Origin: an uncultured Prevotella sp.
GTDB lineage: Bacteria > Bacteroidota > Bacteroidia > Bacteroidales > Bacteroidaceae
NCBI GenBank assembly: GCA_946627325.1
Contig: CAMOVK010000005.1
Location: 1 to 64,000 of the forward strand
Direction of reading: 5' to 3'
DNA length: 64,000 nucleotides
The notes beneath the pieces are model-generated. The model worked only from the letters and a program-made list of their open reading frames with translations, ran no database searches and was not told where the DNA came from. Positions 5,570-54,355 of this stretch are shown here, in pieces (position 1 is the first letter of the stretch; every line of letters starts with the position of its first letter). The translations under genes were made by a program, and so were the position numbers.

Positions 5570-5665
5570 AAAACATCGCAGAAATGTAGAAAAAAATGTA
5601 ATTTTGCAGCGAATTTTCAGTCAGGCGAAAAGTCCCTCGAAAAGTATATCAATTCCTTTCAATTT

Positions 5666-5748
5666 GGAAAGACCTGCTTTCCGTCGTGGAAAGCATATCT
5701 TTTCGGTTCGGAAAGCATATCTTTCCAACTCGAAAAGCATACCTTTCC
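5666..5748. repeat. 22-nt-period palindromic array, locus A (four units)
   Basis: Units at 5666, 5688, 5710, 5732: GGAAAGACCTGCTTTCC-GTCGT-GGAAAGCATATCTTTTC-GGTTC-GGAAAGCATATCTTTCC-AACTC-GAAAAGCATACCTTTCC. Confidence 0.96.
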
Positions 5749-5826
5749 GAATGGGGTTTGTAACTGATTGATATTCAACAGATAGACGATAAGAAACAGA
5801 TAACAGTCAAAACCATTATTCAGAAT

Positions 5827-19809: not shown

Positions 19810-20002
19810 GGAAAAACGATGAGTTGTGCAGGAAAAAGTCAGCTTTTTACAGCCAAAAAGACGTGTTTTTCACGCGAATAAAGGCTAATTTCGAGTAGAA
19901 AAAGATAACTATTCAGTGTGAAAAGATATGCTTTCCAATTCGAAAAGCATATCTTTCCGAATTGGAAAGTATAGACAACGAAGGTGAAAAGATAAAAAAT
20001 CG
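19810..20002. repeat. 22-nt-period palindromic array, locus B (two well-kept units 19920-19936 and 19942-19958 plus degenerate units in the same register)
   Basis: Units starting at 19810(?), 19832, 19854, 19876, 19898, 19920, 19942, 19964, 19986, every 22 nt; core GAAAAGATATGCTTTCC-AATTC-GAAAAGCATATCTTTCC. Confidence 0.7.
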
Positions 20003-28475: not shown

Positions 28476-28637
28476 ATGAAAAAGTATGTTTGCGATGTAT
28501 GCGGGTACGTTTACGACCCTGCAGTAGGTGATCCCGACGGCGGAATAGCTGCGGGTACAGCGTTTGAAGACATTCCAGCCGATTGGGTTTGCCCTCTTTG
28601 CGGTGTGGGAAAGGACGACTTTTCGCCTATGGATTAA
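28476..28637 (+). CDS. rubredoxin
   Basis: 53-aa ORF below the track cutoff: [53 protein letters not shown]; two CxxCG motifs. Confidence 0.96.
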
Positions 28638-31341: not shown

Positions 31342-31470
31342 ACCGTAAAGTATGTGTATCGATAGTGGAAAATGCGCCGCGAAGGTACTAATTTTTTACT
31401 AAAAACTATTGGCAGCGTTGTTAAAAAAATATGACAAGCTAACTCTTTCATTTTCAGCAGTATATATATG

Positions 31471-31565
31471 CGATTTGGAAAGCACGTCTTTCCACCGCGA
31501 AAAGCATGCCTTTCCAACTCGAAAAGCATGTCTTTTCAACTCGGAAAGCATATCTTTCCAAAACG
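31471..31565. repeat. 22-nt-period palindromic array, locus C (four units)
   Basis: Units at 31477, 31499, 31521, 31543: GGAAAGCACGTCTTTCC-ACCGC-GAAAAGCATGCCTTTCC-AACTC-GAAAAGCATGTCTTTTC-AACTC-GGAAAGCATATCTTTCC. Confidence 0.97.
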
Positions 31566-41151: not shown

Positions 41152-41244
41152 GATTTGGAAAGCACGTCTTTCCACCGCGAAAAGCACGTCTTTTCAACTC
41201 GGAAAGCATAACTTTCCAACTCGAAAAGCATGCCTTTCCAAATC
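41152..41244. repeat. 22-nt-period palindromic array, locus D (four units with outer inverted flanks)
   Basis: Units at 41157, 41179, 41201, 41223: GGAAAGCACGTCTTTCC-ACCGC-GAAAAGCACGTCTTTTC-AACTC-GGAAAGCATAACTTTCC-AACTC-GAAAAGCATGCCTTTCC; bounded by GATTT...AAATC. Confidence 0.97.
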
Positions 41245-54216: not shown

Positions 54217-54272
54217 CATCACGTTTTCAAAAGAATAACATCTTGAAAATCAGGAGATTGTGAATACAGTTT

Positions 54273-54355
54273 GGAAAGCACGTCTTTTCACCGCGGAAAG
54301 ACGTGCTTTCCAGCTCGAAAAGATATGCTTTCCACGTCGAAAAGGCATGCTTCCC
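54273..54355. repeat. 22-nt-period palindromic array, locus E (four units, mixed core orientation)
   Basis: Units at 54273, 54295, 54317, 54339: GGAAAGCACGTCTTTTC-ACCGC-GGAAAGACGTGCTTTCC-AGCTC-GAAAAGATATGCTTTCC-ACGTC-GAAAAGGCATGCTTCCC. Confidence 0.95.

Follow-up and report, generated by a model that had tools for sequence, protein, structure and literature searches.

Tandem arrays of 17-nt palindromes with a 22-nt period lie between the genes of an uncultured Prevotella, and in three species these arrays are evenly spaced: in the draft genome analysed here (G000; 1,424,940 bases, 73% complete) and in two congeners, G039 and G392 (other G labels denote related genomes). Each array forms the core of a non-coding cassette that is composite and oriented: it often carries a motif termed alpha on one side and a flank termed beta on the opposite side.

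Palindromic arrays between genes

The type locus, array C, is one of five array loci in the 64,000-nt stretch of contig that was analysed (the window). Its units consist of 6-bp arms around a 5-nt core, and direct reading confirmed both these units and the spacers as an earlier, sequence-only reading had described them. The five loci of that reading were also recovered, in numbers far above chance: the 17-mer RGAAARN5YTTTYY has 23 strand-matches in the window versus 0.75 expected, with a maximum of 5 over 100 shuffles. The description of four loci as four-unit arrays is exact for A, C and D and nearly so for E. The features are as follows.

5639..5665, plus strand: beta-type flank of array A, GAAAAGTATATCAATTCCTTTCAATTT; mixture-model class 0, beta consensus weak
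5666..5748: array A, with four units, flanked by an S9 peptidase gene and gltX, which diverge
5760..5778, minus strand: alpha motif belonging to array A, intact and reading TTGAATATCAATCAGTTAC in minus-strand orientation, 11 nt off the array; mixture-model flank class
19898..19958: array B, intact units at 19920 and 19942 and a degenerate unit at 19898, between convergent rseP and acetyl-CoA hydrolase genes
31447..31465, plus strand: degenerate alpha motif of array C, TTCATTTTCAGCAGTATAT, with mismatches to the alpha consensus, ending 11 nt before the array; mixture-model class
31477..31559: the type locus, array C, made up of four 17-nt palindromes (31477, 31499, 31521 and 31543), cores CACGT, CATGC, CATGT and CATAT, spacers ACCGC, AACTC and AACTC; from direct reading, the pattern against shuffles and the genome scan
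41157..41239: array D, four units, flanked by convergent genes
54243..54261, plus strand: alpha motif beside array E, TTGAAAATCAGGAGATTGT, at a distance of 11 nt; mixture-model flank class
54273..54355: array E, four units, the fourth slightly degenerate (CTTCCC), with a plus-strand gene on one side and a minus-strand tRNA-Met on the other

A lone unit at 28608-28624, GGAAAGGACGACTTTTC, has no partners at 22 nt and may be a chance match or a relic.

A pattern scan of G000 gave 86 arrays after de-duplication. Exactly four units are present in 74 of them, and none of the 86 overlaps a gene called by a heuristic ORF caller. The profile search, which takes in decayed copies, returned 97 arrays at E ≤ 0.01, all 97 intergenic; its reversed-sequence control is uninformative, as palindromes still match when reversed. 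The exact 22-nt period and the confinement of arrays to the space between genes, both claimed from the window, thus extend to the whole draft genome. The unit count of four describes the majority of arrays and is not absolute, since it ranges from two to six in G000; in G392, 45 of the 55 arrays listed consist of four perfect units, and there are no listed arrays of five or more. A check for what would speak against the observation (few copies, copies in genes, a freely varying period and unit count) left it standing, and the view that the arrays are not a slippage microsatellite is supported. By gene context, the sites in G000 lie between divergent genes in 26 cases, convergent genes in 20 and same-direction genes in 32; at the last of these the arrays tend towards the 3′ end of the upstream gene. 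Judged by eye, array orientation along the contigs appears mixed.

A composite, oriented cassette

A mixture model of the flanks of 84 G000 arrays assigned 48 to a beta-alpha and 22 to a beta-gamma/delta arrangement, with a single alpha-alpha case. The alpha or gamma/delta class lies on one side of the array and beta, whose consensus is weak, on the other. Alpha is a palindrome, GTAAC..YTGAnnnTCAR..GTTAC, placed rigidly at 11-12 nt from the array. Alpha, YTGANNNTCARNNNNTTRC, ends 11 nt from the array; as read from the sequences, 33 bp, or three steps of 11 bp, separate the centre of TGANNNTCA from that of unit 1. Dyads recur every 11 bp and unit cores every 22 bp, and alpha sits on the same 11-bp grid. 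Most alpha matches in G000 (46/62) are beside arrays; eight of the remaining 16 fall inside genes and several others beside decayed arrays. A fuller form, TTTGTAAC-N-YTGAnnnTCAR-N-GTTACAAA, is found in G420, where some cassettes also have, by eye, a TTTGTAA-like sequence at both outer ends. In a set of array loci from many congeners, alpha was scored in 17 of 80 flanks versus 1.8 in shuffles, and 12 of the 17 have it at 11-12 nt. The motif hardly occurs in other Bacteroidales, 1.4 Mb of whose DNA yielded 2 matches.

There are arrays at different loci that are 79/83 identical, and the matching of their flanks stops at the cassette edge, so that they are dispersed copies of a discrete non-coding cassette, as is the case for a miniature inverted-repeat transposable element (MITE) such as BrickBuilt (see below). 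Two cassette families recur in G392; family A has TTGAA cores, family B has TGCCA/TTCCC cores, and the spacer order is fixed within each. The copies in G000 are mostly divergent: their arms are near-invariant while cores and spacers are far more variable, which points to constraint on the arms in place. Cores and spacers are also found inverted between their arms, and in an apparent orthologue pair (G686 C1:1931808 and G806 C28:136294) one spacer reads ATAGGAGTT versus AACTCCTAT.

Two congeners share a stretch of more than 1.5 kb that is 98% identical, contains an apparent ATPase gene and starts within an array (L246 from 1490, L247 from 1534). The array here stands at the edge of what is probably a horizontally transferred segment.

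Spacing of the arrays and their occurrence in relatives

The minimum gap between arrays in G000 is 6.59 kb. Gaps below 6.5 kb number 0 versus 29 expected if the same number of arrays is placed randomly in intergenic regions of ≥ 120 bp, and across 5000 such runs there were never fewer than 18; the coefficient of variation of the gaps is 0.46 versus 0.90 in this null. The decayed arrays added by the profile search fell into large gaps and in no case created a short one. G039 (median protein identity 62%) has 41 arrays in 482 kb, with a minimum gap of 5.2 kb (0 observed below this value versus 13.8 expected) and most gaps at 8-11 kb. G392 carries at least 55 arrays in 1.55 Mb, and the minimum gap among the arrays listed, 7.7 kb, was reached in 0 of 20,000 uniform draws; since this genome is a single contig, contig breaks are argued against as the cause of even spacing. 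The three species thus show non-random genome-wide dispersal, as for a family of chromosome-organising sites. Among the arrays listed for G420 there is one gap of 3.6 kb and among those for G718 there are gaps of about 4.9-5.7 kb; the spacing limit is therefore species-dependent or not absolute. We know of no repeat family with such regularity and, to our knowledge, even spacing is not known for interspersed bacterial repeats.

A large array-free gap on C1 (2.6-41.9 kb) contains ordinary genes. The shortest gaps on C1 of G392, among arrays of known class, mostly pair family A with family B, hinting that spacing is perhaps stricter inside one family. Three perfect arrays in G686 (C1:1771757, 1931808 and 2091339) are 160.05 and 159.5 kb apart, possibly by coincidence.

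The assignment to Prevotella was supported by a MurA search, in which MAGs of this genus were the nearest records. If one mismatch is allowed, three-unit AAAG-N5-CTTT arrays are present in 73 of 399 sampled congeners, with the matches numbering 479 in G420, 235 in G392, 199 in G039 and 180 in G118. Few genomes match the reversed control pattern; G385 and G402 do so with many hits, so their counts are untrustworthy. At loci from 22 genomes the 22-nt geometry is constant, AAAG/CTTT arms are shared and the cores are species-specific. A few other genera of the same family carry arrays, in small numbers, and none were found in 40 other families of the order. Array positions in G000 and G039 are mostly not shared (weak enrichment, odds ratio 2.6, p = 0.04), and fixed orthologous positions were rejected on this ground.

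Other tandem palindromes, mostly of period 22, occur in some genomes free of the AAAG type and may or may not be related to it. G026, for example, has four (L131:5778, L131:13886, L132:5894 and L132:10622) with four to six units and unrelated arms; the period is 22 in three of them and 21 in the fourth. Palindromic arrays of 22-nt period with other arms lie near murA in named relatives (L133:14620, L135:6087 and L191:13033), and two of these (L133 and L135) are downstream of rseP, as is array B. The repeats are different, and from sequence comparison the shared site may be chance or a hotspot. In L134, the end of rseP (14656) is followed by a palindrome, GAGTACTC, tandemly repeated at a period of 18 nt.

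Possible roles and comparison with known systems

We tentatively propose, at somewhat less than even confidence, that the arrays belong to a dispersed copying cassette and act as multi-dimer protein platforms that create a kilobase-scale exclusion zone. The cassette of roughly 160 bp (the alpha palindrome and, 11 nt away, the four-unit array followed by the beta flank) would spread by copying among intergenic sites in the manner of a non-autonomous mobile element. Four dimers, one per 17-bp palindrome, would be aligned on one DNA face, an arrangement that the 22-bp period fits, and alpha is a second candidate protein site on the 11-bp grid of the array. The dimeric DNA-binding protein envisaged in the sequence-only reading is consistent with these dyads, cores and the placing of alpha. 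A bound complex would then prevent a second cassette from being established, or tolerated, over several kb, and the exclusion zone would lead to the regular spread of cassettes. Such a zone could reflect target immunity or selection on chromosome layout; we give immunity a modest lead because the distribution is patchy (73/399) and positions are mostly unshared between species. Neither a transposase nor a target-site duplication was found, the sole sign of copying, in comparison between species, being the dispersed similar cassettes. Counting against copying, most G000 copies have diverged save in the arms, which is unexpected for a purely neutral mobile relic; counting against exclusion, the 3.6-kb gap in G420 means that it is not absolute in every species.

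The even spacing, which in G392 also holds across both cassette families, would also be seen if a host protein used the arrays as regular anchors (sites for loops, supercoil domains, nucleoid occlusion or segregation) and selection, irrespective of how each copy arose, kept about one array per 10 kb in the densest species. Arms constrained even in divergent copies, a fixed unit number, the helical period and the avoidance of genes and promoter-proximal positions fit such a role. However, most congeners are without AAAG-type arrays, so the function is not general, the array density varies widely and G000 and G039 have few positions in common; we regard the anchor role as a serious candidate that is on balance unlikely. 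It is close to the nucleoid or domain organiser suggested from the window, a possible role for which even spacing is the strongest argument. A related idea, held with more doubt than belief, is an undescribed chromosome-wide positioning system with four-dimer platforms about every 10 kb (densest species), where some mechanism would measure distance and the species-specific recognition cores would have been replaced throughout the genome, with arms, 22-bp geometry and alpha retained. Species-specific, regular marks could also serve a defence or DNA-processing system by allowing the cell to distinguish its own chromosome from DNA of foreign origin. The even genome-wide spread, species-specific cores and patchy distribution would suit this role and no perfect three-unit array was found among 2.9 million viral contigs, an absence that is nevertheless expected of any chromosomal element; we consider such self-markers improbable.

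The palindromic units, together with the location of same-direction arrays near the 3′ end of the upstream gene, could suggest transcripts with four small hairpins as terminators, processing or stability signals. The sequence-only reading had raised such a row of hairpins and had noted arm changes that are paired in some cases and unpaired in others. These changes are not compensatory: the arms anti-covary (positions 2/16: A-C 115, G-T 90, G-C 101, A-T 33; χ2 21, p = 4e-6) and G-U versus A-C pairs are unbiased on the transcribed strand, which makes RNA hairpins very improbable. Moreover, 26 arrays lie between divergent genes, the arrays have no Rfam match and long-range pairing is lower than in shuffles. 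One long hairpin across the array was likewise rejected (within-array core/spacer complementarity below shuffles in G000, z -5.1 and -3.3). As dispersed, intergenic palindromes with about 100 copies per genome, the arrays resemble REP/BIME elements spread by a RAYT (Y1/HUH) transposase. Such an origin is hardly credible for want of a co-distributed Y1 transposase: Y1_Tnp has no match in the draft G000, is absent from the array-rich G392 (single contig, 99% complete), G420, G118, G359 and G012, and is present in the array-free G016, G042, G059 and G029. An IS21/IstB partner was also discarded, the matches in G392 being weak, partial, inside long frames (the best probably DnaA) and not co-distributed. 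The architecture excludes CRISPR, as had been concluded from the window: about 97 dispersed arrays have 5-nt spacers that recur between arrays, not unique spacers of about 25-40 nt.

About 100 copies held at kilobase distances in three species require either an unrecognised target immunity or layout selection, and both are testable. The 22-bp four-unit geometry, alpha and the species-specific cores provide a handle for finding the binding protein, and together they form a natural series in which to follow how such a protein changes along with its sites. Given that Prevotella is a dominant genus of the rumen and gut, a new feature of its chromosome is of practical use as well.

A search of an open literature library found no description of such arrays, the nearest being BrickBuilt, a minisatellite-bearing MITE of Porphyromonas gingivalis, also of the Bacteroidales, with 19 copies, 1 to 22.8 direct repeats of 23 nt and IS5-like 12-nt terminal inverted repeats (PMC4596501). 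Both are dispersed, intergenic, non-coding cassettes from the same order with tandem repeats of similar length between an unlike leader and tail; in BrickBuilt the repeat number is variable and even spacing is not reported (PMC4596501). In the Prevotella cassette the units are instead palindromes, usually four of them with a 22-nt period, and the copies number about 100 or more and keep kilobases away from each other. REP/BIME elements share the high number (about 100 or more) of intergenic palindromic copies, often in clusters; the Prevotella arrays lack a co-distributed Y1 transposase and have a fixed 22-nt four-unit geometry, even spacing and the extra alpha site. The ends of Tn7/Mu-type elements are arrays of 22-bp transposase sites, and a bound element excludes further insertions over kilobases. 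Site arrays and the scale of exclusion are thus alike, but in Prevotella the units are palindromes that no transposon accompanies; the search for a partner of this type covered the related IstB ATPase family. Iteron and ParR/parC platforms are helix-phased rows of dimer sites, one or few per replicon; the predicted dimer sites of Prevotella are similarly in phase with the DNA helix but are dispersed over the whole chromosome. The array cassette thus belongs to the broad kind of dispersed intergenic repeats, its positioning stands a real chance of being new, and the regularity suggests an undiscovered DNA-binding or copying system.
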